DNA of 49,958 nt, taken from positions 1-49,958 of the forward strand of contig JAFQZN010000020.1 of the NCBI GenBank assembly GCA_017405865.1, given 5' to 3'. Below the pieces are notes generated by a model that saw only the letters and a list, made by a program, of their open reading frames with translations, was not told the origin of the DNA and did no database searches. Every line of letters starts with the position of its first letter. Position 1 is the stretch's first letter. This document shows positions 6,823 to 25,848 of this stretch, one piece after another. This stretch comes from Oscillospiraceae bacterium. Its GTDB lineage: Bacteria; Bacillota; Clostridia; Oscillospirales; Oscillospiraceae. The position numbers and the translations under genes were made by a program.

Positions 6823-6859
6823 AAACAGTGAAAACCCTGCGCCGCGCAAGGAGGTCATG

Positions 6860-7300
6860 ATGAAACAAAGGATACTTCTTCTCTACGGCTTTCAGGCGCT
6901 CCGCCTGACCGCCACGGTTCTGACGCTGTGCGGAATCCTCCACAGGTATGCGGCGGGGTTCTCGCTGTTCACTGCGCCGTTTGCGCTCGCGCTTGTGTAT
7001 GTATCACCGCGTACGGCGGGCGCATTCCTGCTCGCCTATTGCACGGTATTCTTGCTTTCGCACATTCTGTTGTTCTTTCCCCGAACGAGGAAGATCGGCG
7101 TCGTCGGCGTCGGCGTGACTGTGTTTGCGGATCTGTGCGCCTGCGTGGCGTCGGGGATCGTCGGGTCGAATCATTTTTATCTGATCGGCGTACCGGTCTG
7201 CCTGCTCGGCCTGTTCCTCTGCGCGATCTGCAGCAACGGACATTTTCGCCAGCAGGAAGACGCGGCGCAGCGCAATGCGCAAACGGAGGAAACACCATGA
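6860..7300 (+). CDS. small membrane protein, four helices
   Basis: 146 residues with about four hydrophobic helices and a polar, Gln/Glu-rich C-terminal tail. I do not recognise the family. Two ATG codons are adjacent (6857 and 6860); the second has the better five-base spacing from AGGAGG. The stop overlaps the ATG of the following lipoprotein gene, so the two are translationally coupled and probably act together at the membrane. Confidence 0.65.
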   Translation: MKQRILLLYGFQALRLTATVLTLCGILHRYAAGFSLFTAPFALALVYVSPRTAGAFLLAYCTVFLLSHILLFFPRTRKIGVVGVGVTVFADLCACVASGIVGSNHFYLIGVPVCLLGLFLCAICSNGHFRQQEDAAQRNAQTEETP

Positions 7301-8475
7301 AGAAAACATTCGTCGCTCTTCTGCTGCTTGCCTGCCTGTTGTGTGCGGCGTGTAAGACCACGCCGGACGTCAGCGACATCGTCGTACAGAAGGAAAGCTC
7401 CTGGTTCAGCGATTTTGAGGTCGTCGGCGACCGGGTGAATTTCTACTGCATTCTCTGCCTGAAAAACACCGGCAAAGCGGACCAGACGATCTCGATCTAC
7501 GGCAATTTTGACGACGACGTGCGCGGCGGACTGGTGACGGAGGACCGCCTCCTTGCCCGCGATACGAGCAATCCGCGCGCAACGGCGTTCTACGTTCCCG
7601 GCGGGACGGAGATCAGCGTCAAGGTCGTCTTCACCGGCACCTTCGCGGGAACTGCGGAAAAGCACGACCGCCTGCTGCCGACGTTGGAGATCGTTCCTTC
7701 GGACGGCAGCGCGATCAAAGCGGATAACTGGGTCTGCAGCGACCCGACGGAGGACAGCGCGGAAGAAAGCGCGCCGCCGCAGACCTCGGAAATCCCGACG
7801 GAAGAAACGACAAAAGCGCTGCTCGCGGAACCGGCTACGGTTTACCTCATCCAAAACGACGAAACCTGTTTTGTCAAGGCTGCCTACCCGCAGTTCCCGT
7901 CGCCGGAATACGACGCGGTCAACGCGCTGATCGAGGATTATCTGCGTGAGCAGGTGCAGCGCATCTGCCGGGATGCAAGTGATCCCGGGACAGCTTCTTT
8001 CGTCACGCCTTCCGATATCGTGTGGGAGGACCTGCCGCAGTATTATTTGGACCTTGACTACCGCCTGACGCTCTGCACCGAGGATACGGTCAGCGTCGTT
8101 TTCGAGGGCCTTTACAACTATAAAACGGCTGCACATCCGCTCCACAAGTTCCTCTCGCTGAACATCGATCCGCAGACCGGCAAGGAAATCGCGCTTTCCG
8201 ATCGCTATGCGGTCGATGACGCGCTCTATGAGACCTTCGCGGCGTACGCGGAAGCAGATCTCACGCAGAAGCTGGACGGCTGGCCGGAAAACTGGAAATC
8301 GTTCTCCGAGACGATCTGCAGCAAGGAGTGGTTTCTGAACGGCGTGACGCAGGGAAATGAGTTTTACGTTTTCTTCACCGAAGAGGGCGTCGGCGTCAGC
8401 TACCCCATCTCCCACGTCATGGGAGATCATATGGAGATCGTTCTTCCGTACGCGGAGCTGACGGAAACGAACTAA
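7297..8475 (+). CDS. lipoprotein with DUF4163/DUF3298-like domain
   Basis: 392 residues. A lipobox (LLCAAC, cysteine at about 19) marks it for lipid anchoring on the outer face of the membrane. The N-terminal half (about 25-150) is a beta-rich domain with the pattern seen in extracellular immunoglobulin-like modules. A Glu/Ser/Thr-rich linker covers about 155-180. The C-terminal half (about 185-390) has the layout of DUF4163 plus DUF3298, as in RsiV and PdaC (GLYNYKTAAHPLHKFLSLNI, then DPQTGKEIALSD). In RsiV this region binds lysozyme; whether it does here is unknown, and no sigma-factor gene is adjacent. The ATG overlaps the previous stop. Confidence 0.75.
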   Translation: MKKTFVALLLLACLLCAACKTTPDVSDIVVQKESSWFSDFEVVGDRVNFYCILCLKNTGKADQTISIYGNFDDDVRGGLVTEDRLLARDTSNPRATAFYVPGGTEISVKVVFTGTFAGTAEKHDRLLPTLEIVPSDGSAIKADNWVCSDPTEDSAEESAPPQTSEIPTEETTKALLAEPATVYLIQNDETCFVKAAYPQFPSPEYDAVNALIEDYLREQVQRICRDASDPGTASFVTPSDIVWEDLPQYYLDLDYRLTLCTEDTVSVVFEGLYNYKTAAHPLHKFLSLNIDPQTGKEIALSDRYAVDDALYETFAAYAEADLTQKLDGWPENWKSFSETICSKEWFLNGVTQGNEFYVFFTEEGVGVSYPISHVMGDHMEIVLPYAELTETN

Positions 8476-8492
8476 AAAAGAAGGATTAAACA

Positions 8493-9017
8493 ATGATGAC
8501 CGTAAAATCGGAGCGGAGCGCTATCGTGCTTGGCATTCTGTGCTATTTGCCGTTTCTCTATCTCGCTTGGCTGTTCTTCCGCATCAATGCGATCGCCGTG
8601 GCGATCGTGACGGCTGTTGCTACGACGTTTCTGTGCTTTCGCTATGTGATCGCGGTGTCTCGCGCCTTCCGTTTCGACGCCGATGGGCTGACGATTCGTC
8701 TGCTTCGCTTCAGCAGGCACTATCGCTGGGACGAGATAACCGTTCGGCAGGAGAGCTTTGCCGATCGCATCACGGTGAGCAAGCCGCAGTATGCCGGGAG
8801 CGTCTGCTTCCTCACACGGAAAATGCACAAGCCACGCGCGCTCAACCCGCTGATCTATTGTATTCTGCTGCATCCGCTCGGCTTTGCGTTCGTGAATTAC
8901 GATTGGCGCTACCGTGCGCCGGAGATCTATCCCGTCAAGCGGGAGGAATTCCTGCAAAAATGCCGCGCATGGCAAAATGGAACGCCCGTCGCGGAGCAAG
9001 GAGGGAAAGATGATTGA
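8493..9017 (+). CDS. membrane protein of unknown function
   Basis: 174 residues. Two hydrophobic helices near the N-terminus (about 10-50) are followed by a compact domain with alternating charged and hydrophobic residues (AFRFDADGLTIRLLRF, then RWDEITVRQESFA) that resembles bacterial PH-like domains following a TM hairpin. A further hydrophobic stretch lies near residue 125. AAGGA sits before a double ATG. It overlaps the next gene by eight bases and belongs to the same envelope operon. Function unknown. Confidence 0.6.
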   Translation: MMTVKSERSAIVLGILCYLPFLYLAWLFFRINAIAVAIVTAVATTFLCFRYVIAVSRAFRFDADGLTIRLLRFSRHYRWDEITVRQESFADRITVSKPQYAGSVCFLTRKMHKPRALNPLIYCILLHPLGFAFVNYDWRYRAPEIYPVKREEFLQKCRAWQNGTPVAEQGGKDD

Positions 9018-9654
9018 ACGCACCTCGGGGGGCATGCGCCAGACCTATCAGAACCCCCTCGTTTGTGAGATCCGCTTGCTCTACAGCGGAGACTGCATGA
9101 TTCGCTTCGCAGACGGAACGATAAAGACCGCGCAAATTCCGAGCGACCCCCTTTACGTTGCACAGTACGGGATCCCGCTTTCCGAAGACGGCAAATTTAT
9201 GGCGATCGGCAGCTGGGAGAACGGCGTTTCGGTCTATTCTACGGAGACCTGCAATCTACTGTGGCGCTGCCGTACGGCGAGAATCCGGCAGGTTTTCATC
9301 TACCGATCCTGCGTGATCGCGGTGAAGCACGGCACAGGTCTTCTGCAGTTTGATCTGGAAACCGGACGAAAGCTCCGCGAAGTACGAAGCACCACCGTGG
9401 AGGCGGCGTATCTTCTCCGGGACGGGATGGCGCTGGTTTGCTCGATCAAGGGGAAATGCGCGCTCGTCCGTTTGGAGGATCTTGCCGTGGAACGGCTGTT
9501 TCCGAAAGCGGCAATCAATCCGAATCACTGCCTCAGCCTCGTGATTACGGGAGCTTCTGCCGAGAAGGATCGCATCATCGTGCAGGGCTTTGAAAGCTGG
9601 TGCAACGGGAACCCGGCAGACAGAGAAAACAGACCCTTTCAGCGGATATTATAA
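9010..9654 (+). CDS. small beta-propeller-like protein
   Basis: 214 residues, no signal peptide or TM helix. Repeats of the form 'GKFMAIGSWENGVSVYSTET', 'GTGLLQFDLETGRKLREV' and 'GKCALVRLEDLAVERLF' look like blades of a WD40/PQQ-type propeller, but only about four are present, fewer than the usual six to eight. It may pair with another chain, form a dimer, or be shortened. Its ATG overlaps the previous gene and has a GGAGGG Shine-Dalgarno inside that gene's end. A terminator follows at once, so it closes the operon. Confidence 0.5.
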   Translation: MIERTSGGMRQTYQNPLVCEIRLLYSGDCMIRFADGTIKTAQIPSDPLYVAQYGIPLSEDGKFMAIGSWENGVSVYSTETCNLLWRCRTARIRQVFIYRSCVIAVKHGTGLLQFDLETGRKLREVRSTTVEAAYLLRDGMALVCSIKGKCALVRLEDLAVERLFPKAAINPNHCLSLVITGASAEKDRIIVQGFESWCNGNPADRENRPFQRIL

Positions 9655-9660
9655 GCAAAC

Positions 9661-9690
9661 GCACCCATCCGGCGGATGGGTGCTTTTTTG
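9661..9690 (+). terminator. rho-independent terminator
   Basis: GCACCCATCCGGCGGATGGGTGC followed by TTTTTTG ends the 6860-9654 operon. Confidence 0.85.
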
Positions 9691-9706
9691 TGCGGAAAGG
9701 AAACGA

Positions 9707-9734
9707 TTGACAATCCGTGTTTTTTCGATAGAAT
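9707..9734 (+). promoter_or_regulatory. promoter of the PlsC-like gene
   Basis: A perfect TTGACA, a 16-bp spacer and TAGAAT lie 30 bp before the ATG at 9765. Confidence 0.7.
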
Positions 9735-9764
9735 GAAAGTATAGCAGCTGCGGGAGGGTACGGT

Positions 9765-11042
9765 ATGGACATCGACAACGTCAAGCGGTTTGATATGAAG
9801 AGAAAGCCTGTGCGGTGCAGATGGTTTTTGAAGCCCGTCGCGTGGGCGCTTGCGTTCCCCAACATCTGGAAGCACAAAACGAAAATCACCAAGGTCGGCA
9901 TGGAGGGCGTGAAGCCGCCCTACGTCCTGTTGGGCAATCACAACGCCTTTTTCGATATGAGCGTTTCCACGCGGGCGACGTTTCCGCAGTTCGGCAACTA
10001 TGTCGTCGCGATCGACGGTTTCATCGGCAGGGAAGGGCTGCTGCGCAACATCGGCTGCATCTGCAAGCGAAAGTTTACGAACGATCCCGGCCTGGTGCGC
10101 CATCTGATCGAGGTGGTCAAGATGAAGGGGATCGTTGCGCTCTATCCCGAGGCGCGCTACTCCCTGTGCGGCACGACCGCGCCGCTGCCGGAGTCTCTGG
10201 GAAAGCTCTGCAAGCTCCTGGAGGTCCCCGTGGTCACGCTCATTTGCCACGGCGACCATATCAACCACCCCTTCTGGAACACGCGCCATGAGCGCGGCGT
10301 CAAGCCGACGGAGGCGGAGATGAAGCTCCTGCTCACAGCCGAGGAGGTCAAAAGTCTCACCGTCGACGAGATCAACGAACGCATCGTGCGGGAGTTCCAA
10401 TACGACGATTTCCGCTGGCAGAAGGAGAAGGGCATCCGCGTCACCTGCAAGGATCGCGCCGTCGGGCTGGAAAAGATCCTCTATCAGTGTCCGCACTGCG
10501 GCAAGGAATTCCAAATGGAGTCCGAGGGGGTCACCCTGCGCTGCAGAGCCTGCGGGAAGGAATGGACGATGACGGAGCTGGGCGAGCTGGAGGCGCGCCG
10601 CGGTGAAACGGAGTTTTCCCATATCCCGGACTGGTATGAGTGGGAGCGCGAAAACGTCAAAAAGGAGGTCGCAGCAGGCACGTATTCTTCCGGTGAGCTT
10701 CCCGTCACGGTGGACAGCCTCCCGAACGCAAAGGGCTATATCCGCCTCGGCGAGGGCAGGATGACGCACGACATGGACGGCTTTCAGGTCTCCGTCACGG
10801 CGGAAAACGGCAAGGTCTACACGATGGAAAAATCCGTCCCGTCGCTCTATTCCTGCCACATCGAGTACGAATACCTCTTCAAGCACGGCGACTGCGTTGA
10901 TCTCAACACCCTGACGGACACGTGGTACGTCTACCCGCACGACTGCGACTTTTCCGTGACGAAGATGGCGCTTGCGACGGAGGAGCTCTACTACGACTAC
11001 CGCCGCAAATCCGGCAAGCCCTGCAAGCCGGGTTTGGCGTAA
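9765..11042 (+). CDS. 1-acyl-glycerol-3-phosphate acyltransferase-like protein with zinc ribbon
   Basis: 425 residues. The N-terminal half is a PlsC-type acyltransferase. It has the HX4D catalytic motif at His59/Asp64 (GNHNAFFD), a substrate-binding-like block YPEARYS in place of the usual FPEGTRS, and a later hydrophobic strand. Such enzymes transfer acyl chains from acyl-ACP or acyl-CoA to lysophosphatidate at the membrane. Near residues 240-265 there is a four-cysteine zinc ribbon (CPHCGKEF, then CRACGKEW), and a further 160-residue domain without a recognised family follows. At 425 residues it is nearly twice the usual PlsC length. It has its own promoter and terminator, next to the proposed fatty-acid operon. 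Confidence 0.8.
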   Translation: MDIDNVKRFDMKRKPVRCRWFLKPVAWALAFPNIWKHKTKITKVGMEGVKPPYVLLGNHNAFFDMSVSTRATFPQFGNYVVAIDGFIGREGLLRNIGCICKRKFTNDPGLVRHLIEVVKMKGIVALYPEARYSLCGTTAPLPESLGKLCKLLEVPVVTLICHGDHINHPFWNTRHERGVKPTEAEMKLLLTAEEVKSLTVDEINERIVREFQYDDFRWQKEKGIRVTCKDRAVGLEKILYQCPHCGKEFQMESEGVTLRCRACGKEWTMTELGELEARRGETEFSHIPDWYEWERENVKKEVAAGTYSSGELPVTVDSLPNAKGYIRLGEGRMTHDMDGFQVSVTAENGKVYTMEKSVPSLYSCHIEYEYLFKHGDCVDLNTLTDTWYVYPHDCDFSVTKMALATEELYYDYRRKSGKPCKPGLA

Positions 11043-11265: not shown

Positions 11266-14085
11266 TCATTCCTGCTCGGTCGGGTAGTCCGACTTGCCGG
11301 TGACCTTGCGCTTGACGATCTTGACCATGCGCTTGAGTGCGTAGGGTCCAACGAGCTTCATCATCTCCTCGGCGGTGTGCATATCGCTCGCGGCGGGCAG
11401 ATCGCGACTCAGGTGGATCGCGTCGAATTCGCAGCGGGTCGTGCAAAGACCGCAGCCGATGCACTGGTTTAGGTCGACTGTCGTTGCGCCGCAGCCGAGG
11501 CAGCGGCTTGCCTCGATTTTGACCTGCTCTTCGGTGAGCGGCAGCCGCAGATCGGAGAAGGTTTCTCTCGCCTGCCCCGGTTTGTTGCCGGGACGCTGTC
11601 TGGGAGAGGTGTCAAAGGAATCCGGGCGGATGTCCTCACGGTCGAATTCGATGAAATTGCGGCGATCTCTGCCGATGGTCAGCGACTGACCGGGATGTAC
11701 AAAGCGGTTGATCGACACCATCGCCTCGCGACCGGTTGCGATCGCGTCGATGGCGAAGCGTGCGCCGTGGAAGATGTCGCCGCCGACAAAGACGTCCGGC
11801 TCGGCGGTCTGGAGCGTGACGGGGTCGGCAACGGCGGTGCCGTTCGGTCGCAGCTCGACCTTGCTGCCCTTGAGCAGCTCGCCCCACTCGGCGCTCTGAC
11901 CGATCGCCATCAGCACGGTTTCGCACGGGACAGTAAGCGTGTCCGCCTCGTCATAGACCGGGCGGAAGCGATGCTCCGCGTCAAAGACCTGTGTGCAGCG
12001 CTTGAAAACGACGCCGGTGACCTTGCCGTCGGCACCGCGCAGGATCTCCTTCGGTCCCCAGCCGTTCTCGACGGCGATACCTTCCTCGAGAACCTCTGCG
12101 ATCTCATCCTTCGCAGCGGGCATCTCCTCGCGGGACTCCAGGCACAGCATCGTGACCTTGCCGCCCGTCGTGCGCAGCGCAGTACGCGCTACGTCCGCAG
12201 CGACGTTGCCGCCGCCGACGACCACGACGTCGCCGGACAGCGTTTGTGCATTGTCCTGATTGACGCGCTTGAGGAAGTCGACGCCGGACTCGACGCCGGG
12301 ACCGTCCTCACCGGGAACGCCCGCCTTGCGGCCGCCCTGCAGACCGATCGCTACAAAGAACGCCTTGAAGCCCTGCGCCCGAAGCTCGTCCAGCGTGACG
12401 TCCTTACCGACCTCGACGCCGCAGCGGATCTCCGCGCCCATCTGCTCGATGATCTCGATCTCCCTTTCCAGCACGTCCTTTTCCAGCCGGAAGCCGGGAA
12501 TGCCGTTGAGCAGCATGCCGCCGGGTCGCTGCGCTTTTTCAAATACGGTGACGGGGTAGCCCTCGGTGCGCAGATAATATGCCGCAGACAGACCGGCAGG
12601 ACCCGCGCCGATCACGGCGATGGGGAAGTCGGCCCACTGTTTGCCCTCGCCGTTTTCGCAGATCACGGAGTAGGCGGAGGGGTTCTTCAGCTCCCACTGC
12701 GCGAGGAATTTCTTGATCTCATCAATGGCGACCGGCTGGTCGATCGTGCCGCGGGTGCAGCGATCCTCGCAGCGGCGGTTGCAGACCGCGCCGCAGACTG
12801 CCGGGAAGGGGTTATCCTGACGGATCAGCCTGACTGCCTCCGCGTAACGCCCTTCGGCTGCCATCTTGATGTAGCCCTGCACCGCGATGTGGGCGGGGCA
12901 GGCGGTCTTGCACGGCGATGTGCCGGTATCGTAGCAGTTGGTCTTGTTGGTATCGCGGTAGTTGCGATCCCAGCGCTTTTCTCCCCAGATGTGGTCGTCC
13001 GGCAGGTCGCGCATCGGGTATTTTACCTTCGTGCCGTCTGCCTTGCAGAGCTTTTGCCCGAGCCGTGCTGCGCCGGCAGGACAGACCTCGACACATTTGC
13101 CGCAGGCGACGCACTTGGCTTTATCCACATGGGCGCGGTAAGCCGAGCGCGACATATTCGGCGTGTTGAAGAGCTGGGAGGTGCGCAGACCGTAGCAGCT
13201 GCCCGCCGAGCAGTTGCAGATGCCGACGATGCGGTTCGGACCGTCGAGATTGGTGATCTGATGCACGTAGCCCTTGCGCTCGGCGCGCTCGATGATCTCC
13301 AGCGCCTGCTCGCGGGTAATGTAGCGGGCGTCCTTGCCCGTTTCGACCAGGTATTCGGCGATGTCGCCGACGCCGATGCACATATGCCCCTCGATGTCGC
13401 CGACGCCCTCGCCACGGATGCGCTGCGCCTTGCGGCAGGCGCAGACCATGGAGCAGAATTTGTCGTACTTTTGCAGCCAGTGGGACAGATGCTCGACGCT
13501 GACGCTCTGCGAGCCGACGTCGATCGCCTTCTCCACCGGGATGACGTGCATGCCGATGCCGGCGCCGCCGGGCGGCACCAGCTTTGCCGCAAGCTCCAGC
13601 GGCTCCTGCGGCGCGAGGTTGAACATCGTGGCGACCTCGGGATGCTCGTCCGCCAGCGTGGGATGCTCGACCATGTATTCACCCGAGCCGACGACCCACT
13701 TGGGGATCAGATACTGGATGTGCTGGTCAGCATTGTCGCGGTTTTGCTCCAGAATGCCGATCCACAGCAGGTGGTCGATGATCTTCTGCGCTTCTTCCTC
13801 GCTCATGCTGTTCCTGGCGGCAAGCTCCTTCGTCGTCAGACCGACGCGGCGGACCTTGAAGCTCAGCATGAACTTGATCTCTTCCTTGGTCAGCAGGCGG
13901 TCGAGAATCCAGAAATCCATGTGGTTTTCCTTCATGCCGCCGGGCAGCTTGCGCGGAATATTGTCCGTGATCATCACGGCGAGCTTTTTCACCAGTTTTT
14001 TCTTTTCCGGATCGTCGCATTTGTGCTCTGTGACCGGATAATCCCGCTCGTTGACGTGGATCTTCGGATTGACTTCTTTGACCAT
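11266..14085 (-). CDS. multidomain Fe-S/FAD/NADPH oxidoreductase (GltD-like)
   Basis: 939 residues, a cytoplasmic electron-transfer protein. In order: an N-terminal helical part with a winged-helix-like segment (about 60-115); a cysteine-containing domain (CSMVCACRK near 210, CNCSAGSCYG near 290); a 4Fe-4S motif CVACGKCVEVCP (about 328); a GltD-type N-terminal Fe-S domain (SPCKTACPAH, CGAVCNRRCEDRC); an FAD Rossmann motif (VIGAGPAGLSAAYYL, about 490); an NADPH Rossmann motif (VVVVGGGNVAADVARTAL, about 630); and a C-terminal ferredoxin-like pair (CLGCG, CIGCGLCTTRC). It probably passes electrons from NADPH through FAD to several clusters. It is the last gene of the leftward operon, 24 bp after the ferredoxin reductase gene. 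Confidence 0.88.
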   Translation of the reverse strand: MVKEVNPKIHVNERDYPVTEHKCDDPEKKKLVKKLAVMITDNIPRKLPGGMKENHMDFWILDRLLTKEEIKFMLSFKVRRVGLTTKELAARNSMSEEEAQKIIDHLLWIGILEQNRDNADQHIQYLIPKWVVGSGEYMVEHPTLADEHPEVATMFNLAPQEPLELAAKLVPPGGAGIGMHVIPVEKAIDVGSQSVSVEHLSHWLQKYDKFCSMVCACRKAQRIRGEGVGDIEGHMCIGVGDIAEYLVETGKDARYITREQALEIIERAERKGYVHQITNLDGPNRIVGICNCSAGSCYGLRTSQLFNTPNMSRSAYRAHVDKAKCVACGKCVEVCPAGAARLGQKLCKADGTKVKYPMRDLPDDHIWGEKRWDRNYRDTNKTNCYDTGTSPCKTACPAHIAVQGYIKMAAEGRYAEAVRLIRQDNPFPAVCGAVCNRRCEDRCTRGTIDQPVAIDEIKKFLAQWELKNPSAYSVICENGEGKQWADFPIAVIGAGPAGLSAAYYLRTEGYPVTVFEKAQRPGGMLLNGIPGFRLEKDVLEREIEIIEQMGAEIRCGVEVGKDVTLDELRAQGFKAFFVAIGLQGGRKAGVPGEDGPGVESGVDFLKRVNQDNAQTLSGDVVVVGGGNVAADVARTALRTTGGKVTMLCLESREEMPAAKDEIAEVLEEGIAVENGWGPKEILRGADGKVTGVVFKRCTQVFDAEHRFRPVYDEADTLTVPCETVLMAIGQSAEWGELLKGSKVELRPNGTAVADPVTLQTAEPDVFVGGDIFHGARFAIDAIATGREAMVSINRFVHPGQSLTIGRDRRNFIEFDREDIRPDSFDTSPRQRPGNKPGQARETFSDLRLPLTEEQVKIEASRCLGCGATTVDLNQCIGCGLCTTRCEFDAIHLSRDLPAASDMHTAEEMMKLVGPYALKRMVKIVKRKVTGKSDYPTEQE

Positions 14086-14109
14086 ATCGTTCTCCTTTGT
14101 GATTGCGGA

Positions 14110-15294
14110 TCACACGATCGGAATTTTGATCGTCATGTCCGACAGCGGATAGGTCGCGCAGGCGTGGACGTAATCGAAATCCTTGTCTGCAGCGCGGCGA
14201 CCGTCGTTTTCGGGACTGACGAAATAGCTGCCCTTGAGCACCTTCGTGCGGCAGAAGCCGCACTCGCCGCTGCGGCAGTCGGTCAGCAGGACAATGCCTG
14301 CCCGCTCGCAGGCGGTGACGAGAGACTCATCTGCGCGCGCCGGAATCACGTCTTCCTGCACGCCGCGCACAACGGTCAGCGCAAACGTCTTGTCTTTCAT
14401 CTCCGCGGGATAGCCGGGCAGCGCAGCGACGTCCTTCGCCTGTCCGAAGACCTCAAAGCGGATACGGCGGCGGGGAACGTCGAGCTTTACGATCTCTTCG
14501 CGCAGGAAACGGTACATCACCTGCGGACCGCAGATGAAGTAGGTGTTGTCCTCGCGGGAATACTTCTTGATCAGCTCTGCTGTGAGGAAGCCGCGCTCAC
14601 CCGTCCAGCCGGGCTCGTCGCCGGACAGGACGTGAACGATGCGCACGCGGTCGGAGCGGATGGCGTCCAGCTCATCCTTGAGCACGATGTCGTCGGACGT
14701 GACCGAGCCGTAGAGGATCGTCAAATCCGCGTCGAGCGTCCCGTGCGCGATCTCCTTTGCCATGGAGGCAAAGGGCGTGATGCCCACGCCGCCTGCCAGC
14801 GCGACGATATGCTTCGCGTCGCGCAGGGGTTCAAAGTAGAACTGTCCAAGTCCCATCGTGCCGGTCAGCGTGTCGCCGATCTTCAGCTCGTCGTTGATAT
14901 AGTCTGCGATCAGACCGTCGCCCTTTGAGCGGCGCACGGTGATCTCAACAAAGCTGTCGTCCTGCCGCGCTTCAAACGGCGCCGACGAGATCGAATACGG
15001 TCTGCAGATCAGCTTGCCGTCCAGCAGGAAGCCGAGGGAAATAAACTGCCCTGCGTAGAACGGCGGCAGTTTTTTGCCATCAGTGCGGACGAAACGGACC
15101 GTTTTCGCGGTCTTGCAGGCAGGGCGGATGTCCACGACCTTGAGCTCCATCGAGCCGGGGTGCCAGGTCTGTGCGACCTCGCCGATCGGGTCGCCGGTGA
15201 CAGGCTGCTTCGAGGCGGCGGCAAAGGCGCCCAGCCTTGCCTTGGTGACGCGCGACGCGCCGGTAACGTCCTTCAAAAAGCCCTTGATCTTCAT
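14110..15294 (-). CDS. ferredoxin-NAD(P)H reductase with C-terminal 2Fe-2S domain
   Basis: 394 residues. After a 50-residue leader comes a FAD-binding beta-barrel (CRPYSISSAP is the RxYS flavin motif), an NAD(P)-binding domain (VALAGGVGITPFASMA, YFICGPQVMYRFL), and a C-terminal plant-type 2Fe-2S ferredoxin with CRSGECGFC plus a distal cysteine. This is the layout of class IB-like reductases that deliver electrons from NAD(P)H to a partner oxygenase or reductase. The start at 15294 overlaps the stop of the upstream flavoprotein (ATGA), showing tight coupling. I infer it is an electron donor to one or both flavoproteins encoded upstream. Confidence 0.88.
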   Translation of the reverse strand: MKIKGFLKDVTGASRVTKARLGAFAAASKQPVTGDPIGEVAQTWHPGSMELKVVDIRPACKTAKTVRFVRTDGKKLPPFYAGQFISLGFLLDGKLICRPYSISSAPFEARQDDSFVEITVRRSKGDGLIADYINDELKIGDTLTGTMGLGQFYFEPLRDAKHIVALAGGVGITPFASMAKEIAHGTLDADLTILYGSVTSDDIVLKDELDAIRSDRVRIVHVLSGDEPGWTGERGFLTAELIKKYSREDNTYFICGPQVMYRFLREEIVKLDVPRRRIRFEVFGQAKDVAALPGYPAEMKDKTFALTVVRGVQEDVIPARADESLVTACERAGIVLLTDCRSGECGFCRTKVLKGSYFVSPENDGRRAADKDFDYVHACATYPLSDMTIKIPIV

Positions 15295-16823
15295 TTTGCC
15301 GCCTCCCTCTTCTTCATATCGTCGAGCACGTTTTTCGCTGCTTTTCTGCCGTTGGTGACCGCAGGTCCCATGCCGTCGCCGGAGATCTGATGCGCGCCGG
15401 CGAATTCCAGACCTTCGATGAACTTTTCCTCCTCGGCGGTCTGAAGGCGCGCGACGATGTGATCCTCCATCGTGTGGGCATAGCCGTAGATGCAGCCGTT
15501 CCACATGCCGGTGTAGTGCGCGATCGTCATCGGCGTCTCGATGACGCATTCAAGAATGTGCTCGCGCAGATCGAAGCCGAGGTACTTGTTCATCATGTCG
15601 ATCATCTGGCTTGCGACCTCGTGCTTGACACGGTCATAGTCGTCCGCGCTGACGGTCTGCCAGCCGTCGACGCGCGGCAGCGTGGTGATCGAGAACGAGC
15701 AGGTTCCCTCCGGCGTCGCGTCAGGATTGGCAAGATTGTGGCAGATGCAGGTGAGGTAGCGGTACGGTCCCAGCCCCGCCAGATCCCGGTAGAGAAGGTC
15801 AGTGTCCATCGTGTCGCCGTGGAAGATACTGTAGTCTCGGATGCCGAGCTCCTCGGCGGTCTTGTCGAGGATCATGATGACGGAAAACGCGGCGAGGCTC
15901 AGCCGTCTGCCGTTGACCATCTTGATCGCGCCCTCCGGGACCTCGCTCTTTGGCTCGATCATCGAGGTGTAGACCTTGTTCGGATAGGGCGCGGAAATGA
16001 CGTAATCGGCGTGGATCTCATCGCCGCGCTGTGTTCTGACGCCGTAGACCCTGCCGTTTTTGACGAGGATCTTTTCCACGTGCTGCCGGTATTCGATCTG
16101 CACGCCCATCGCCTCGGCGCGCTCTGCCATCTTGAGGCTCATTTCATGGCTGAATTTGCGCGGGATATAGGAGCCGTAGCCGACGTAATCCGCCATCAGA
16201 ACGGCGAAGATCGTGAAGGGCAGCTCACGGAAGCCGGAGCCGACGTAGATCCAGTACGGCGCAAGCAGATCCTGCGCCTTCTGCGGCAGGTCGAAGCTGT
16301 CGATGACCTCCTGCGTGGAGTAGCCGGCGGTCTTGACGAACGCCTCGTGCTTTAAGAGCATCTTCACCTTGCTCATCGGATGAATCGACAGCTCGTTGAC
16401 GCTGTCGAACACCGTGTGGCATAGATTCAAAAGCTTCAGCACCTTTTCATACGTGCCGGGAACTGCGGCGTCGACCTCTTTTGCGAAGGTTTCCAGTCCC
16501 GGGTGCAGCGTGACCTCCAGACCGGGGATGGAGGCGTGGTACGCCTCCGGCACCTTGAGCCATTCGACGTCGACGCCCATATCTTCCAGAAATTTGCCGA
16601 CCTTGAGGCGGTTGCCCTTCGGACCGATGCTCATCATCTCATGCAGCGAGGCTTCGATCTCGATGCCGCCGCGCACGAAGCTCGTCGCGATGCCGCCGGG
16701 CAGGTTGTGCCGCTCTAAAACCAGCACGTCCTTGCCCTTTTCCGCCAGCATCAGCGCAGACGACAGGCCTGCCAGCGCGCCGCCGATGACGATGACGTCA
16801 TAGTGATCTTTGTAAAATTTCAT
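15291..16823 (-). CDS. CrtI/RetSat-family FAD-dependent oxidoreductase
   Basis: 510 residues with the N-terminal dinucleotide motif VIVIGGALAGLSSALMLAEK and the next-strand acid VLVLERH, then GGIATSF, typical of phytoene desaturase, carotenoid isomerase and retinol saturase relatives. The C-terminal FAD motif appears as LEFAGAHQISGDGMGPAV near residue 470. Family members add, remove or isomerise double bonds in long unsaturated hydrocarbons. No carotenoid genes are nearby; instead the partner gene resembles a fatty-acid isomerase, so an unsaturated fatty acid or its conjugated product is the more likely substrate (inference). It starts 52 bp after the isomerase gene and overlaps the reductase gene. 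Confidence 0.85.
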   Translation of the reverse strand: MKFYKDHYDVIVIGGALAGLSSALMLAEKGKDVLVLERHNLPGGIATSFVRGGIEIEASLHEMMSIGPKGNRLKVGKFLEDMGVDVEWLKVPEAYHASIPGLEVTLHPGLETFAKEVDAAVPGTYEKVLKLLNLCHTVFDSVNELSIHPMSKVKMLLKHEAFVKTAGYSTQEVIDSFDLPQKAQDLLAPYWIYVGSGFRELPFTIFAVLMADYVGYGSYIPRKFSHEMSLKMAERAEAMGVQIEYRQHVEKILVKNGRVYGVRTQRGDEIHADYVISAPYPNKVYTSMIEPKSEVPEGAIKMVNGRRLSLAAFSVIMILDKTAEELGIRDYSIFHGDTMDTDLLYRDLAGLGPYRYLTCICHNLANPDATPEGTCSFSITTLPRVDGWQTVSADDYDRVKHEVASQMIDMMNKYLGFDLREHILECVIETPMTIAHYTGMWNGCIYGYAHTMEDHIVARLQTAEEEKFIEGLEFAGAHQISGDGMGPAVTNGRKAAKNVLDDMKKREAAK

Positions 16824-16875
16824 ATTCTCTCCTTAAAAATGGAGGGAGCGTCGCCGCTCCCTCCGATCTCGACTT

Positions 16876-18264
16876 TTAGAAGAATCGTTCGACCAGCTCG
16901 CGGGAATACTCCGCCGTCTCGTCCATATCGCCGAAGCTCATGATCTCGCCGGCGTAGAAGGTGTCGTACTTGTCCTGCATTGCCTCGACCTTGTCATACC
17001 AGCCGGCGGCGTAGTCCTCGGAGAAGACATGCGGGAAGTAATACACGCTCCACTCGTTGATGACGTTGGACGCGGGGTTGTGCATAATCTTGAGGTCGTT
17101 CAGCACCGTCTTCTTGCATTCCTCGTAGGGGATCTCCTTGCTGTTCTTGTGCTTGCGCAGGGCGTAGGTCGTGATGACCTGATCCTTGGTGTCCTTCCAG
17201 CGGCGATAGTAGACCATCAGATGTCCGAGTGTCTTCGGGGTCATGTTTTCAAAGACATAGTAGGAGATCTCCGGATGATCCTCGGGCTTTGTCTCAACTG
17301 CCAGCACGTCGTAGCGCTCGTAGTCAATCTTGGAGAAGAGCTCCTTCTCGTCCTCGCGGGCGTCGAAGTAGTCGACCATGCCGATCTGTCCGTCGTCGCG
17401 CTTGTTCGGGATATACAGCGGCGCGGTGACGATGATCTTGTCGTATTCCTCGACCTTTCCGTTGACGGTGACGTAGACCTTGCCGTCCTTGCGCTCGACC
17501 TTTTCGATCTTGCTGTTCAGACGCGCAGGGTTCTTCAGATGGTCGTTGAGCTGCTCCCAGATATACTGGGTGCCTTCCTTCCACGTCCAGAGGTTGACCT
17601 TGACGAAGTTCATCGTCGTCTGGAAGTCGAGGTATTTCAGCACGTAGGCTGCCGGGATCTCGTCAAAGTAGCCGTAGCCGAAGGAGGTGAACGGCCCGAT
17701 CCAGATGTCCTGCGTCAGTTCGACGCCGTTCTTTTTGCAGAATTCGCTGAACGGCAGCGCCAGATCCTTCAGATTCGGGTTTTCGCCCTTGATCGGCTCG
17801 CGCTTGGCGTTCGCCTGCGAGAAGCCGTCGTACTTGCCCTGCGCGACGCCGCGGTGACCGTTGACGTCGTAGCCCTTATACTTGGTTTCCAGCAGCTCGC
17901 CGAGCTTCTTGACCTGCTTCTTCATCTTGAGCAGACGCGGGATCTTGAGCAGATTCTTCTTCGGCTCGAACGGCTCGATGACGTCGCCCTTGGCGTTCTT
18001 GTAGTTGCGGTTGAGCTTCGGGCCGTCGTGGGTGATGCCGCAGAACTCCTCGACGTCGTGGACGGCGTAGTAGCTCGGAACGCCCATGATCGCGCCCATT
18101 TCGTAGCGCCTTCCGTTGTAGTGGGGCGACCAGCACTTGCCGCCGACGCGGTCAAGCCGTTCCAGGATCGTGTAGTTGGTGTAGCCCTTCTTTTCCAGGT
18201 ACATGCCTGCGGAAAGACCTGCCGGACCGCCGCCTACGATGCAGATGCGGGTATTCTTGTCCAT
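16876..18264 (-). CDS. polyunsaturated fatty acid (linoleate) isomerase-like flavoprotein
   Basis: 462 residues, FAD-dependent amine-oxidase fold. N-terminal FAD motif CIVGGGPAGLSAGMYLEKKG. Blocks that I remember from the Cutibacterium acnes 10,12-conjugated linoleate isomerase recur in order: GRRYEMGAIMGVPSY, TKYKGYDVNGH, a PFTSFGYGYFD block, PAAYVLKYLDF, LWTWKEGTQ, GHLMVYYRRW, YFPHVFSEDY, AGWYDKVEAMQ and TFYAGEIMSFG. That enzyme shifts a double bond of free linoleate through hydride transfer to and from FAD, with no net redox change. This protein is about 40 residues longer, with an insert near 95-160. AGGAGGC and a good start lie at 18264; the longer frame to 18300 is not needed. It is the first gene of the leftward operon. 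Confidence 0.85.
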   Translation of the reverse strand: MDKNTRICIVGGGPAGLSAGMYLEKKGYTNYTILERLDRVGGKCWSPHYNGRRYEMGAIMGVPSYYAVHDVEEFCGITHDGPKLNRNYKNAKGDVIEPFEPKKNLLKIPRLLKMKKQVKKLGELLETKYKGYDVNGHRGVAQGKYDGFSQANAKREPIKGENPNLKDLALPFSEFCKKNGVELTQDIWIGPFTSFGYGYFDEIPAAYVLKYLDFQTTMNFVKVNLWTWKEGTQYIWEQLNDHLKNPARLNSKIEKVERKDGKVYVTVNGKVEEYDKIIVTAPLYIPNKRDDGQIGMVDYFDAREDEKELFSKIDYERYDVLAVETKPEDHPEISYYVFENMTPKTLGHLMVYYRRWKDTKDQVITTYALRKHKNSKEIPYEECKKTVLNDLKIMHNPASNVINEWSVYYFPHVFSEDYAAGWYDKVEAMQDKYDTFYAGEIMSFGDMDETAEYSRELVERFF

Positions 18265-18449
18265 AAAAAAGCCTCCTATGCTTTCAATATTATATGCCAT
18301 GCTTATTATACATTATCTGTCGGAAAAATGCACGATTATTTTTGGGGATCGACGTATTTTTTATAAAATTCTCACAAAGCCCTTGCCCGACCTGCTTTGA
18401 GATGGTATACTGTAAGGTGAAAAGGACTCGAACGGCTGCGGAGGGCGTT
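18265..18449. promoter_or_regulatory. divergent control region of the fatty-acid operon and acyl-ligase trio
   Basis: Rightward, TTGCCC (18383), a 17-bp spacer and TATACT (18406) make a fair promoter for the acyl ligase operon. Leftward, TATAAT lies at 18289-18294 on the minus strand, 25 bp before the isomerase start, but with a weak -35 (GATAAT). No clear operator palindrome is visible. The shared 185 bp means the two operons could be co-regulated. Confidence 0.55.
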
Positions 18450-19808
18450 ATGTTGAGATTCAGCGGATTTGATGCACTGCTGCGGCATTGGGCAGACGTT
18501 GCGCCCGACGCCGCTGCGATACGCTATGCCGAGGGCGGAGCGCTCTGCCTGTGCTCCCATGCCGAGCTGCTTGCCCGCGTGCAGGCGCGCGCCAAAAGCC
18601 TCCGGCGGGAAACGGCGGCGGCATATGCGCTGTTTATGGACGGCAGCCTCGCGTGCGTGATCGAGACGTTCGCCTCGGTGCTGGCAGGACGCCGCACCGT
18701 TTTGCTCAATGAAAACGCGCCGGACGCCGTGCTTGACGCGCAGCTTCGAGAGGCGGAGGTCGACGCGCTGTGGGGAGCCCCCGATTTGTGCGAGAGCTTT
18801 GCGCCGCTGTGCAGGGCGGGGGCAGAGGCAGGGGAGAGAAAAGTGCTCTTCTTCACCTCCGGCACGACGAGCCGTGCAAAGGCAGTCGTTCTGACCGACG
18901 AAACGCTGTGCGCCAGTGCGTATAACGGCGGCGCGCTGCTGCCGCTGCAGGCGCAGGACGTTCTGCTGAATCTGCTGCCGCTGGATCATGTCTTCGGCTT
19001 CGTCTGCGGATTGCTGTGGGGACTGTCCTGCGGGGCGACTGTCGCGCTTGGCAGAGGCGCAAGATACTACACGGAGGATTGCGGTCTGTTCCGCCCGACG
19101 GCTCTCTCGGCAGTGCCGCTGCTGCTCGGCTTTCTTTTGAAGCAGCGGGCGCTGAACCCGGAGCTGAAGCTCCTGCTGGTCGGAGCGGGCGAGTGTCCGC
19201 CGGCAGTGCTGCAGGCGGCAAAGGCGACCGGCGCGCGCGTCTGCTTCGGCTACGGTCTGACGGAGACAAGCTCGGGCGTTGCCTTGAGTTTGGGCGAGGA
19301 CCCCTATGCGATGACCGTCTGCCCGGACGACCGCATCACGATCGCGCCGGACGGCGAGGTGCTGATCGAGGCGCCGACCTGCATCATGCAGGGCTACTGG
19401 CGGCGCGAGGACGACACGGCGCGCGCCGTGCAAAACGGCGTGCTCCATACCGGCGATCTCGGCAGGCTCGACGAAGCGGGCAAGCTCCGGCTGACCGGCC
19501 GAAAAAAGGAGATCCTGGTGCTCGCCGACGGGACAAAGCTGTTCCTTCCGGAATATGAGGCAGCGGTCGCGGGTGCGCTTGGCGAAACAGACCTTTGCAT
19601 CCTTCTGCGCGGCGGCGCGCCCGTTCTGCTGCTGGGAGGTCCGCCGCGCGATACGAGGCCGCTTTGGGACGCCCTGCGCCCCGTGCTGGAGGAGCGACCG
19701 CGCGGGCAGCAGCTGCGGCGTATTTTATTCTATCACGACCCGCTGCCACGCACGGCAAGCGGAAAAATCATGCGTTGGGCGATTCAACGGGAAAAGGAGA
19801 GCGAATGA
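18450..19808 (+). CDS. AMP-forming acyl-activating enzyme (acyl-ACP/CoA ligase family)
   Basis: 452 residues of the ANL adenylation superfamily. The ATP-binding loop is FFTSGTTSRAKAVVL near 133; the motif GYGLTETSSG lies near 267; TGDLGRLDEAGKLRLTGRKKE spans the hinge aspartate-arginine region; and the C-terminal catalytic lysine sits in PRTASGKIMRW. These enzymes adenylate a carboxylate and pass it to a thiol. The gene overlaps the ACP gene by four bases (ATGA), so the acceptor is probably that carrier protein rather than CoA (inference). Length is short for fatty-acyl-CoA synthetases and closer to stand-alone adenylation enzymes. The start was placed at 18450; the long upstream frame covers the control region. 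Confidence 0.88.
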   Translation: MLRFSGFDALLRHWADVAPDAAAIRYAEGGALCLCSHAELLARVQARAKSLRRETAAAYALFMDGSLACVIETFASVLAGRRTVLLNENAPDAVLDAQLREAEVDALWGAPDLCESFAPLCRAGAEAGERKVLFFTSGTTSRAKAVVLTDETLCASAYNGGALLPLQAQDVLLNLLPLDHVFGFVCGLLWGLSCGATVALGRGARYYTEDCGLFRPTALSAVPLLLGFLLKQRALNPELKLLLVGAGECPPAVLQAAKATGARVCFGYGLTETSSGVALSLGEDPYAMTVCPDDRITIAPDGEVLIEAPTCIMQGYWRREDDTARAVQNGVLHTGDLGRLDEAGKLRLTGRKKEILVLADGTKLFLPEYEAAVAGALGETDLCILLRGGAPVLLLGGPPRDTRPLWDALRPVLEERPRGQQLRRILFYHDPLPRTASGKIMRWAIQREKESE

Positions 19809-20062
19809 TGTACAGCAGAGCGGAGATCCTGAACAAAACAAAGCAGATCATCGCCGAAGCCCTGCCGGAGCTGGAGGGCAAGGAATTTGACGAGAGCACT
19901 GTCATCAACACGGATACCGGCATTGATTCGATGGGCTTCACGCTGATTATCTGCCGGCTGGAGGCGGCGTTTGACGTGCAGATCCCCAACCGACAGTGGC
20001 AGAAGCTGCAGACGATCGGCGACGTGGTGGACGCGATCGAAAAGCGTCTGCCGAAGGCATAA
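19805..20062 (+). CDS. acyl carrier protein
   Basis: 85 residues with the phosphopantetheine attachment site in TGIDSMGF (Ser42) and the usual helical pattern before and after it. It is a specialised ACP: its sequence around the site (DSMG instead of DSLD/E) and its placement between a ligase and a thioesterase set it apart from the housekeeping AcpP. A second ATG at 19808 is equally possible (AGGAG spacing five or eight bases). The ACP would carry an acyl chain loaded by the upstream ligase. Confidence 0.9.
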   Translation: MMYSRAEILNKTKQIIAEALPELEGKEFDESTVINTDTGIDSMGFTLIICRLEAAFDVQIPNRQWQKLQTIGDVVDAIEKRLPKA

Positions 20063-20063
20063 T

Positions 20064-20774
20064 ATGTACGAGCAGACGTACCGCGTGTTGAGCTCGGACG
20101 CCGATCCGATGCGGCGGCTGCGGCTTTCGCGGCTGTTCACCCTGCTGCAGGAGGCGTCGATCGCGCACACGATCGAGCTCGGCATGGGCAGGGAAAAGAC
20201 CCTCGACCGGGGCTTGCTCTGGATCGTTACCCTGCAGCAGGCGAGCATCAGAAGACTTCCTGTCTACGACGAGAAATACCGCCTGCTTTCGTGGCCGGGG
20301 AAGACGATGCATCTGTTTTTCCCGCGTCACTACCGGCTGGAGAATGCAGACGGCGAGCTGCTTGTGGAGGCGAATGCGCTCTGGGCGCTGATGGATGCAG
20401 GCACGCGGCGGATCGTCTTCCCGGAGGAACACGGCATTCAGATCAGCGAAGAAAAGACCGGCTGGGAGACGCCGCTGCCGTCGCCGCCGCAGAGCCCGAA
20501 GGAACCCGACGCGGACGAATTTGCCGTGCCTTACAGCTATGCCGATCTCAACGGACACATGAACAACACGCGCTACTTCGACCTTGCGGAGGATCGCATG
20601 CCGGAGGAGCTGCGTTGCCGCCGAGTGCGCAGCATACGCGCAGAGTATGCCCACGAGATTCGCGCGGGCGAGCGCATAACGCTGCTGTCCGAGACGCAGA
20701 CGGATCAGTTCCTGCTGCTCGGCGAGCGCGACGGACAAAAGCTCTTCAAGCTCAGCCTGACTTATAACAAATAA
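20064..20774 (+). CDS. acyl-ACP thioesterase (FatA/FatB family)
   Basis: 236 residues with two hot-dog folds. The second holds DLNGHMNNTRYFD near residue 160, matching the D..GHVNN..Y signature of acyl-ACP thioesterases. The first half carries the N-terminal fold with SRLFTLLQEASIAHTIELG. The enzyme hydrolyses acyl-ACP to free fatty acid, so with the ligase it could make a load/unload cycle on the ACP. The ATG follows the ACP stop by one base. A terminator follows at 20775. Confidence 0.88.
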   Translation: MYEQTYRVLSSDADPMRRLRLSRLFTLLQEASIAHTIELGMGREKTLDRGLLWIVTLQQASIRRLPVYDEKYRLLSWPGKTMHLFFPRHYRLENADGELLVEANALWALMDAGTRRIVFPEEHGIQISEEKTGWETPLPSPPQSPKEPDADEFAVPYSYADLNGHMNNTRYFDLAEDRMPEELRCRRVRSIRAEYAHEIRAGERITLLSETQTDQFLLLGERDGQKLFKLSLTYNK

Positions 20775-20802: not shown

Positions 20803-20934
20803 CAGACTGTCAAAAAAGTCCGTAACCGTCAAAATTATTAAAACAATTTTTGGATTATTCCCTGTTTAAACGTTTTTCTGTTTTTTTCAGGTTTTTCTAA
20901 CAATTTAGGCTACAAAAAGCTTGCTTCGCAAGGA
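20803..20934 (-). repeat. 134-bp dispersed repeat, copy 2 (inverted)
   Basis: This is the reverse complement of 1-133, with only a few differences and with the same flanking TTGCGAAGCAAG palindrome. Together the copies flank about 20.7 kb that holds the surface and fatty-acid genes. Confidence 0.85.
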
Positions 20935-20948
20935 TTTTGACTTACTGC

Positions 20949-20996
20949 GCAACTCACGACCTACCGTACCTATGTACGCCGACGGTCGTGAGTTGC
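20949..20996. repeat. long GCAACTCACGACC hairpin
   Basis: GCAACTCACGACC and GGTCGTGAGTTGC form a perfect 13-bp stem around a loop with an inner TAC/GTA pairing. No gene spans it. It lies in a repeat-rich gap (20775-21092) that contains no gene. Confidence 0.65.
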
Positions 20997-21024
20997 TTGT
21001 CTTCCGAACTTTTTGACAGCCTGT

Positions 21025-21078
21025 CAGCGTGTCGAAAAGGGTTTTTCGACACGCTGAACCTCGTCGTTCGACGAGGTT
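21025..21078. terminator. double hairpin after the lipase-like gene
   Basis: CAGCGTGTCGAAAA...TTTTCGACACGCTG is followed by AACCTCGTCGTTCGACGAGGTT. Read leftward, the second hairpin comes first after the stop at 21093 and is a plausible terminator. The first belongs to the GTGTC hairpin family also at 2175. Confidence 0.6.
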
Positions 21079-25661: not shown

Positions 25662-25750
25662 TGGCGGAGTGAGAGCGGCTCGAACGCTCAAGGGCATCGC
25701 TGCCCCGCCTCCTTAGCAGGGAGGTCTCTTACCAATTAGAGTATCACTCC
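25662..25750 (-). tRNA. tRNA-Ser(GCT)
   Basis: Acceptor GGAGTGA/TCACTCC with discriminator G and encoded CCA; anticodon loop CTGCTAA in the stem CCTCC/GGAGG; long variable arm; T arm GAGCG-TTCGAGC-CGCTC. Confidence 0.9.
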
Positions 25751-25756
25751 AAAGAA

Positions 25757-25844
25757 TGGTGGGCCAGGTTGGACTCGAACCAACAATGTCCGTCAGGAAC
25801 CGGATTTACAGTCCGGGGCGATACCAATTACGCTCTACTGACCC
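25757..25844 (-). tRNA. tRNA-Tyr(GTA), atypical copy
   Basis: Acceptor GGGTCAG/CTGGCCC, anticodon loop CTGTAAA in CCGGA/TCCGG, long variable arm, T arm GTTGG-TTCGAGT-CCAAC, and encoded CCA. It differs clearly from the second tRNA-Tyr at 28672, and its D stem is short. Confidence 0.8.
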
Positions 25845-25848
25845 ATAT

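Follow-up and report, generated by a model that had tools for sequence, protein, structure and literature searches.

A cassette of seven genes in two divergent operons, found in a 49,958-nucleotide stretch of DNA from an Oscillospiraceae bacterium (contig JAFQZN010000020.1, positions 1 to 49,958; the window below), probably enables uncultured ruminant-gut Clostridia to biohydrogenate linoleic acid from the diet, perhaps linolenic acid too, by a route of the trans-10 type. Gene order and strands were verified as a sequence-only reading had given them, as were the gaps of 52, −4 and 24 bp in the leftward operon and the 185-bp divergent region; all frames are open, and the domain assignments are backed by Pfam. 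The features are:

11266–14085, minus strand: G4, Fe-S/FAD/NAD(P) protein, open frame
14110–15294, minus strand: G3, ferredoxin-reductase type with 2Fe-2S, open frame
15291–16823, minus strand: G2, CrtI/CrtISO-like, open frame
16876–18264, minus strand: G1, isomerase, open frame
18265–18449, no strand: divergent control region, 185 bp between G1 and G5
18305–18333, minus strand: promoter-like element of the G1 operon, GTGCAT-N17-TATAAT
18450–19808, plus strand: G5, AMP-dependent acyl ligase, open frame
19808–20062, plus strand: G6, acyl carrier protein (ACP), open frame, with a second in-frame ATG at 19805
20064–20774, plus strand: G7, acyl-ACP thioesterase, open frame

The set is inherited together. 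Homologues of the seven genes do co-occur in other genomes, and among 80 named G1 loci (each denominator counting the loci whose contig reaches far enough) G2, whether type A or type B, follows G1 in 75/75, G3 follows G2 in 67/67, the ligase-ACP-thioesterase trio is divergent from G1 in 66/69 and G4 is adjacent in 28/50, so that the arrangement is beyond chance, with G4 attached less tightly than the other six genes. By hand count 64 of the 80 locus titles are ruminant, 31 naming a ruminant host and 33 more carrying the RUG label, which we take to mean a rumen genome. A genome of another family (G449) has six cassette genes in the same layout, at 39–61% protein identity. The family itself was sampled with 200 genomes, 12 G1-positive and 188 G1-negative, and the ligase (E 1e-60) is in 11/12 of the former versus 0/188 of the latter, counts that ignore relatedness. 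The ligase co-occurs with G1 even where the operons are unlinked: in G109 both are intact, on separate contigs and at least about 105 kb apart. Three loci (L031, L074 and L087) have no trio beside G1 and the ligase elsewhere in the genome; for L021 and L024, where the contig ends upstream of G1, there is no ligase at E 1e-40.

The monoacylglycerol-lipase-like and PlsC-like genes on either side, which had been noted along with the cassette, turned out to be unrelated to it and were rejected as members, because among the 80 G1 loci the PlsC-like gene has one weak match (28%) and the lipase-like gene none. A search of 72,556 plasmid records at E 1e-30 left P0002 and P0008 (G1) unmatched and thus gave no hint that plasmids carry the cassette.

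The part of the pathway that is well supported is isomerisation, since by homology G1 is predicted to isomerise linoleate. Its match to PAI, the polyunsaturated fatty acid isomerase of Propionibacterium (Cutibacterium) acnes (2b9w; phmmer E 1.4e-135), has 224 of 416 aligned residues identical (54%), in two stretches that take in G1 residues 2–138 and 166–462, and bears out the linoleate-isomerase-like identity first given to it. R88, F168 and F193 of PAI, which we take to be active-site residues, have their equivalents in R86, F195 and F220 of G1 (P0008), and these are invariant in 81/81 aligned homologues.

Domains and conserved catalytic residues likewise support the fatty-acid-handling trio proposed before. 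G5 (PF00501) has the AMP-ligase motifs that we take to be A3, A7, A8 and A10, with the A3 motif TSGTT in 69/70 and Lys439 in 70/70. Its nearest solved relatives are CoA ligases, and the ACP gene adjoining it is only suggestive of ACP as its acyl acceptor. G6 (PF00550, phosphopantetheine Ser41 in 69/69) is a dedicated acyl carrier protein that would carry the chain. G7 (PF01643 and PF20791) is of the FatA/FatB type, with N163 and H165 in 70/70, and its nearest solved chain is 2own, a putative oleoyl-ACP thioesterase. G1 and the ACP co-diverge (partial Mantel 0.45, uncorrected for shared ancestry), which is kept as only a hint of an acyl-ACP substrate for G1 because the Mantel test ignores shared ancestry.

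G2 has Amino_oxidase / NAD_binding_8 domains in Pfam. Its best NCBIfam profile, carotenoid isomerase TIGR02730, gives 117.5 bits against a curated cut-off of 586.9 and crtI_fam TIGR02734 gives 103.9 against 238.1, so far under the cut-offs that G2 can be placed only as a relative in the CrtISO/CrtI superfamily. With a kinship to RetSat that we presume, it is a candidate saturase among the CrtI/CrtISO/RetSat-superfamily flavoproteins. G3 (NAD_binding_1, Fer2 and FAD_binding_6 in Pfam), an FAD/NAD(P) reductase with a C-terminal 2Fe-2S domain whose cysteines are kept in 74/74 (Cys340, 345 and 348) and 73/74 (Cys379), is its probable electron donor. The two are coupled: they co-diverge (partial Mantel 0.81), and the two types of the pair take one change on the G2 tree versus 10 and 7 on those of G1 and the ligase, so that G2 and G3 appear to have been swapped as one unit. 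G2 need not be fatty-acid specific, because G2-G3 pairs without the isomerase occur in the vicinity of a CoA-transferase, an enoyl-CoA hydratase or a FadR-like regulator, and a G2-like gene at E 1e-60 is present in 7/188 G1-negative family genomes. At 57% identity or more, G2 is in 11/12 G1-positive versus 2/188 G1-negative family genomes.

G4 had been read as an electron-delivery protein. That has to be corrected, since G4 is built like IsrA, which is a putative reductase of conjugated dienes, and so may itself be a catalyst. Over its 939 aa (Fer4_20, Pyr_redox_2 and Fer4 in Pfam) the order is N-terminus, Fer4, Fer4_20, Pyr_redox_2 and a C-terminal Cys-rich stretch, matching the IsrA type (clade 9 Nfn-like). 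C215, C217, C236, C290, C292 and C297, which include two CxC, are kept in 44–45 of 45 aligned sequences, and from motif and spacing we infer that they are the same six as those of IsrA cluster V. G4 is in consequence a candidate conjugated-diene reductase, an IsrA/NfnB-like multi-cluster protein. With the best four first-look candidates per genome scored, IsrA-like genes at E 1e-150 are in 12/12 G1-positive versus 23/188 G1-negative family genomes; five of the 12 have close G4 copies, and the G4-like genes found in the other seven are distant paralogues with at most 58% identity. A G4-like gene is absent from 1 of 18 other carriers, three of which (G594, G598 and G602) are not new evidence because their contig coordinates are those of G164, G080 and G174 in the family sample.

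HypA is not beside G4 in the window; it occurs on contig C73, close to another G4-like gene. It scores above the cut-off in 13/13 G1-positive versus 1/9 hand-picked G1-negative genomes, often beside G4-like paralogues. In G014 a G4-like gene and HypA follow G1, and that genome has no G2 match and no ligase match; in G003 TetR, DUF5692, G2-like, G3-like, G4-like and HypA genes stand in a row without G1. Of the original interpretation, then, the isomerase, the trio and the co-occurring set stand, the role of G4 may be a different one, and the flanking genes drop out.

A comparison of the control region (18265–18449) with Rfam showed no known RNA element at E values up to 0.1. Of the 66 canonical loci, 62 have 125–341 bp from the aligned end of G1 to that of G5, and the other four have 866–1505 bp. 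An element of the GTGCAT-N17-TATAAT type lies 37–69 bp before G1 in 35/70 control regions as against a mean of 0.08 and a maximum of 1 in 50 shuffles, the motif having been picked after enriched words were seen in those very control regions.

In the proposed pathway G1 would convert free linoleate to the conjugated diene trans-10,cis-12-CLA (the P. acnes PAI mechanism is a hydride shift on FAD). G2, with NAD(P)H electrons supplied via G3, would then reduce the diene to a mono-ene, perhaps further, and the IsrA-like G4 may be an additional or alternative reducer. G5 and G6 would load the chain on the dedicated ACP, a soluble carrier through the reduction steps, and G7 would release it as the end product, a free acid. 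Substrate, isomer, the direction of G2 and G4, the role of the ACP, and reduction and acyl-ACP handling as a whole are inferred. PAI probably binds its substrate by a free carboxylate, for which no ACP is needed, and this counts against the proposed pathway. It is possible, though we lean against it, that the cassette supplies the genes so far missing for the ruminal trans-10 route in a form where uncultured Clostridia have isomerase and reductases side by side, the multi-cluster IsrA-type G4 reduces the diene (a reaction like that proposed for isoprene), G2-G3 is an interchangeable saturase module and the chain is ACP-borne through the reductions.

The cassette might instead stop at isomerisation, G1 detoxifying polyunsaturated fatty acid to CLA, with the trio recycling the product or activating it on ACP as a precursor of phospholipids for uptake into the membrane, and G2, G3 and G4 acting on another substrate or keeping the flavin reduced. 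C. acnes, with an isomerase of the PAI family, does end at t10,c12-CLA (PMC7339423, in its accessible part), and G2-G3 pairs are known in other gene contexts. Yet the constancy of G2 beside G1 and of G3 beside G2, with either G2 type, makes this rather unlikely, and if the chain were simply incorporated, a thioesterase cleaving acyl-ACP again would be hard to account for. It is quite improbable that G2/G3 or G4 are dehydrogenases and that the cassette, instead of taking double bonds away, makes a special conjugated or polyunsaturated ACP-bound chain destined for a lipid or signal. CrtI-type relatives are desaturases and dedicated ligase-ACP-thioesterase sets do occur in small biosynthetic clusters, but none of the seven genes encodes a ketosynthase, a transferase or an exporter, and an NAD(P)H-linked FNR with an IsrA-like partner in anaerobes points to reduction; IsrA, too, is described as a putative reductase (PMC10134865). 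The 54% identity to PAI leaves room for a changed regio- or substrate specificity, so that G1 could act on, for instance, a different polyunsaturated or a terpenoid acid with no C18 biohydrogenation; invariance of the presumed active-site residues, the ruminant titles of most carriers and the fatty-acyl ligase in 11/12 G1-positive family genomes make this highly improbable.

If trans-10-type biohydrogenation is indeed what the cassette does, it could help to explain rumen conversion of plant oils to trans and saturated fat. Ruminal trans-10 fatty acids are tied to milk fat depression, the bacteria behind them have not been unambiguously identified, and C. acnes is unlikely to be their sole or predominant producer (accessible parts of PMC7339423 and PMC11770317). 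As a marker that joins the isomerase to candidate reductases, the cassette points to named MAGs and to genes for expression, and allows primers for quantification; it also offers candidate genes for the CLA-reductase step, and IsrA-type enzymes, whose representative so far is a putative isoprene reductase, would be linked to fatty-acid chemistry. The isomerase is not new in the rumen niche, PAI homologues having been counted in 7/228 rumen MAGs (PMC10019597, as far as its accessible text goes), and it is for the whole cassette that no description was found in openly licensed papers, preprints excluded.

Lactobacillus plantarum CLA-HY/DH/DC/ER, of which CLA-HY, DH and DC are named in the accessible part of PMC9241672, is likewise a multi-enzyme linoleate conversion in gut bacteria; its hydratase, SDR and decarboxylase have no counterpart in the seven-gene cassette. 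Butyrivibrio, with a linoleate isomerase and a CLA reductase, biohydrogenates in the rumen by the same overall chemistry as that proposed, though its route is trans-11. The L. plantarum saturation route passes through hydroxy and oxo acids. For Butyrivibrio the openly licensed literature yielded, on a CLA-reductase gene, mentions of activity only, and no linoleate isomerase gene was found in B. fibrisolvens INBov1 (PMC6249431, accessible part). CrtISO and CrtI provide the best curated profiles for G2 and, unlike them, the cassette G2 is paired with an FNR-2Fe-2S protein (67/67). IsrA of Acetobacterium wieringae, a putative isoprene reductase, resembles G4 in its length of about 900 aa, domain-less N-terminus, two CxC 74–75 residues apart, Fer4, PF14691, PF07992 and C-terminal Fer4, and a G4-like gene at L161 has the HypA, TetR and DUF5692 neighbourhood reported for IsrA relatives (PMC10134865). 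HypA/HypB neighbour 73%/56% of IsrA homologues (PMC10134865); G4 differs in lacking HypA next to it in the window and in standing beside a fatty acid isomerase. The C. acnes PAI (2b9w) is like G1 in homology over nearly the whole length, in FAD fold and in presumed active-site residues, but whereas it leads there to t10,c12-CLA as the end point, G1 stands together with genes of reductase type and with the acyl-ACP trio.

The cassette is real and widely conserved. All seven genes named in the sequence-only reading are intact in the window at the places and on the strands it gave, and its layout holds: G1–G4 run leftward with gaps of 52, −4 and 24 bp, and G5–G7 run rightward from the other side of a 185-bp region, as claimed.

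11266–14085 (−): G4, IsrA-like; Pfam Fer4_20, Pyr_redox_2 and Fer4
14110–15294 (−): G3, 2Fe-2S reductase; Pfam FNR with 2Fe-2S
15291–16823 (−): G2, CrtI/CrtISO-like; Pfam Amino_oxidase/NAD_binding_8
16876–18264 (−): G1, isomerase; Pfam Amino_oxidase/NAD_binding_8
18305–18333: GTGCAT-N17-TATAAT, promoter-like element of the isomerase operon
18450–19808 (+): G5, ligase; Pfam AMP-binding
19808–20062 (+): G6, ACP; Pfam PP-binding
20064–20774 (+): G7, acyl-ACP thioesterase; Pfam Acyl-ACP_TE

A 1077-codon open frame at 11695–14928 (+), antisense to G3 and G4, is probably a shadow ORF thrown up by G+C-rich coding sequence. Six tRNA genes lie in two groups at 25662–28845 (−).

Scanning a single genome from each species gave 449 stretches encoding relatives, of which the best 80 were retained. 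Being the query's closest relatives, they tilt the sample towards the window's niche (by hand count of titles, a ruminant host is named in 31 and 33 are labelled RUG, presumably rumen uncultured genome, while 16 are uninformative). A search for the gene set in other genomes bore out its recurrence as a six-gene core: among those of the best 80 loci with enough contig room, G2 follows G1 within 700 bp in 75/75, G3 follows G2 in 67/67, and the ligase-ACP-thioesterase trio is divergent upstream of G1 in 66/69. G4 directly follows G3 in 28 of 50 and is somewhere in the locus in 39. Where the trio is non-canonical, its genes are present in the opposite direction (L082) or the ligase is elsewhere in the genome (L031, L074 and likewise L087, too short for the count). 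Three carriers are truncated upstream of G1: a ligase is present in L073, and searching L021 and L024 at E 1e-40 gave no match. In a genome of another family (G449) the six-gene layout is kept at identities of 54, 61, 55, 40, 49 and 39%, with a TetR-like gene after G3. Two MAGs titled Sphaerochaetaceae (L042, L066) also yielded cassettes, through either cross-phylum transfer or misbinning.

G1 occurs, the window's own genome included, in 12 of 200 genomes of its family (E 1e-30; 9/106 genera; some of these genomes are also among the 80 loci, e.g. G080 = L085) and in 2 of 391 of the class (E 1e-60), and in 1 of 13 of G449's family. The ligase (E 1e-60) is present in 11/12 G1-positive versus 0/188 G1-negative family genomes (Fisher p 3e-17, kinship ignored), G014 being the sole positive without it. 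G2 at 57% identity or more is in 11/12 versus 2/188 (G041, G153), the latter becoming 7/188 at the looser cut-off of E 1e-60. In genome G109 the two groups are split between contigs, G1-G2-G3 on C3 and G5-G6-G7, intact, on C4, at least about 105 kb apart from distances to contig ends; the two are thus separable operons travelling together. The window's three genus-mates within the family sample lack G1. At the syntenic place in one, G197, between a PlsC-like gene and a 153-bp element, there is a G4-like gene without the other six, so the cassette is either an accessory gain or has since been lost there. The 153-bp stretch (window 20904–21056), possibly a repeat or mobile remnant, is 91.5% identical to its G197 counterpart; other matching pieces of the pair are 69–78% identical.

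Of 70 divergent regions (the window's and those of 69 loci), 35 have a GTGCAT-like and a TATAAT-like hexamer 37–69 bp before G1, spaced by 16 or 17 bp (17 in 33 of the 35). In fifty shuffles the pair appeared in 0.08 regions on average and in at most 1, the motif having been chosen from words enriched in these same regions, of related loci. The GTGCAT −35 departs from the usual TTGACA.

G1 matches 2b9w (E 1.4e-135; 224/416 aligned residues identical), recorded in the PDB as a putative aminooxidase and which we take to be the P. acnes polyunsaturated fatty acid isomerase, PAI. In the alignment G1 R86, F195 and F220 are the equivalents of R88, F168 and F193, presumably active-site residues of PAI, and these positions are invariant in 81/81 aligned sequences (the window and the best 80 of 449 loci). 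The product of the P. acnes enzyme is described as t10,c12-conjugated linoleic acid (CLA; PMC2885616).

There is good evidence, from sequence comparison, that G2 and G3 function jointly. Taking 70% identity to the window's sequence as the dividing line, 52 G2 matches are of type A and 26 of type B (78 of the 80 loci have one), and G3 tracks the type (61–84% identity with type A, 48–53% with type B). On the topologies as given, G2 type changes once on the G2 FastTree tree, at least 10 times on the G1 tree, weakly resolved because G1 is strongly conserved, and 7 times on the ligase tree. Over 60 loci carrying the full six-gene core (rows below 85% coverage of a gene excluded), Spearman correlation of distance matrices is 0.82 for G2-G3 and 0.15–0.55 for the remaining pairs. 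Partial Mantel values are 0.81 for G2-G3, 0.45 for G1-ACP, 0.43 for ligase-thioesterase, 0.25 for G2-ACP, 0.21 for G1-thioesterase, 0.20 for ACP-thioesterase and at most 0.16 for the rest, G1-ligase and G3-ACP being clearly negative; shared ancestry remains in both tests, so the values for pairs other than G2-G3 are only hints of joint function. The G2-G3 pair is a more general module, since related pairs stand without G1 in other contexts, possibly acting on other ene-substrates:

L156 7956–10300: in G041, beside a FadR-like GntR regulator
L157 2305–9814: in G153, with a family III CoA-transferase at a distance of ~3 kb
L171 5375–7785: in G109, beside an enoyl-CoA hydratase

In the proposed mechanism G1 would convert free linoleate to a conjugated product, which G2 with G3 and/or G4 would reduce, the chain being held as acyl-ACP by G5 and G6 and set free by G7. 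Gene identities, invariant residues and co-inheritance are established, and nothing beyond these. Isomerisation by the cassette is probable and the putative reduction likely. G2 as a fatty-acid saturase is weakened by the other contexts of its family. The putative acyl-ACP channelling is plausible; it is weakened because PAI probably binds a free carboxylate and because G5's closest relatives of solved structure are CoA ligases.

The identity of trans-10-forming rumen bacteria has been called not unambiguous; C. acnes, with t10,c12-CLA as end product, was the only trans-10 former among 28 species tested, and its predominance was considered unlikely (PMC7339423). Strains are described as hard to obtain (PMC11770317). 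BLAST found PAI homologues in 7/228 rumen MAGs (Lachnospiraceae, Oscillospiraceae and unclassified bacteria; PMC10019597), so the isomerase was already known in this niche; the words "reductase" and "operon" are absent from that paper's main text. Literature searches returned nothing recognisable as an account of the seven-gene set and, as far as they reach, the cassette as a whole is undescribed.

G4, an NfnB-like protein of 939 residues, parallels IsrA, a putative isoprene reductase of 901, in motif and domain order as published. The N-terminus of IsrA is described as domain-less, ~270 residues long and holding six closely spaced cysteines, C180xC182 and C254xC256 among them; it is followed by Fer4, PF14691, PF07992 and a C-terminal Fer4 (PMC10134865). 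G4 likewise has two CxC motifs (C215xC217, C290xC292), plus C236 and C297, and the six cysteines are kept in 44–45 of 45 aligned homologues. At E 1e-150, and scoring just the best four first-look candidates per genome, G4-like genes are in 12/12 G1-positive versus 23/188 G1-negative family genomes (p 1e-10). Copies of at least 76% identity are in only five of the twelve (the window's own G000, G036, G084, G181, G187); the other seven have paralogues of at most 58%. Among 18 carriers chosen for having no G4 after G3 (three repeating family-sample genomes), 17 carry a G4-like gene somewhere in their genome. Neighbours reported for IsrA relatives are HypA, HypB, TetR and DUF5692, and in A. woodii and A. 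fimetarium an oleate hydratase adjoins the IsrA relative (PMC10134865). HypA is above cut-off in 13/13 G1-positive versus 1/9 hand-picked G1-negative genomes; that one, G197, has a G4-like gene, and HypA may therefore go with G4 and not with G1. Another G4-like gene, 63–64% identical and with HypA nearby, is present in the window's genome (L163, G000:C73:5183-9687). In G014 (L155 = G014:C22:33000-49578; 5972–10212) a 53–57% identical isomerase is directly followed by a G4-like gene, then HypA, and the genome gave no G2 or ligase match at E 1e-60. In G003 TetR, DUF5692, G2-like, G3-like, G4-like and HypA genes are consecutive, with no isomerase among them (L161 = G003:C13:58000-72000; 1620–9027), by gene content an IsrA-type cluster containing a G2-G3 pair. 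Because CLA, like isoprene, is a conjugated diene, there is reason to think of G4, by analogy with IsrA, as a candidate CLA reductase.
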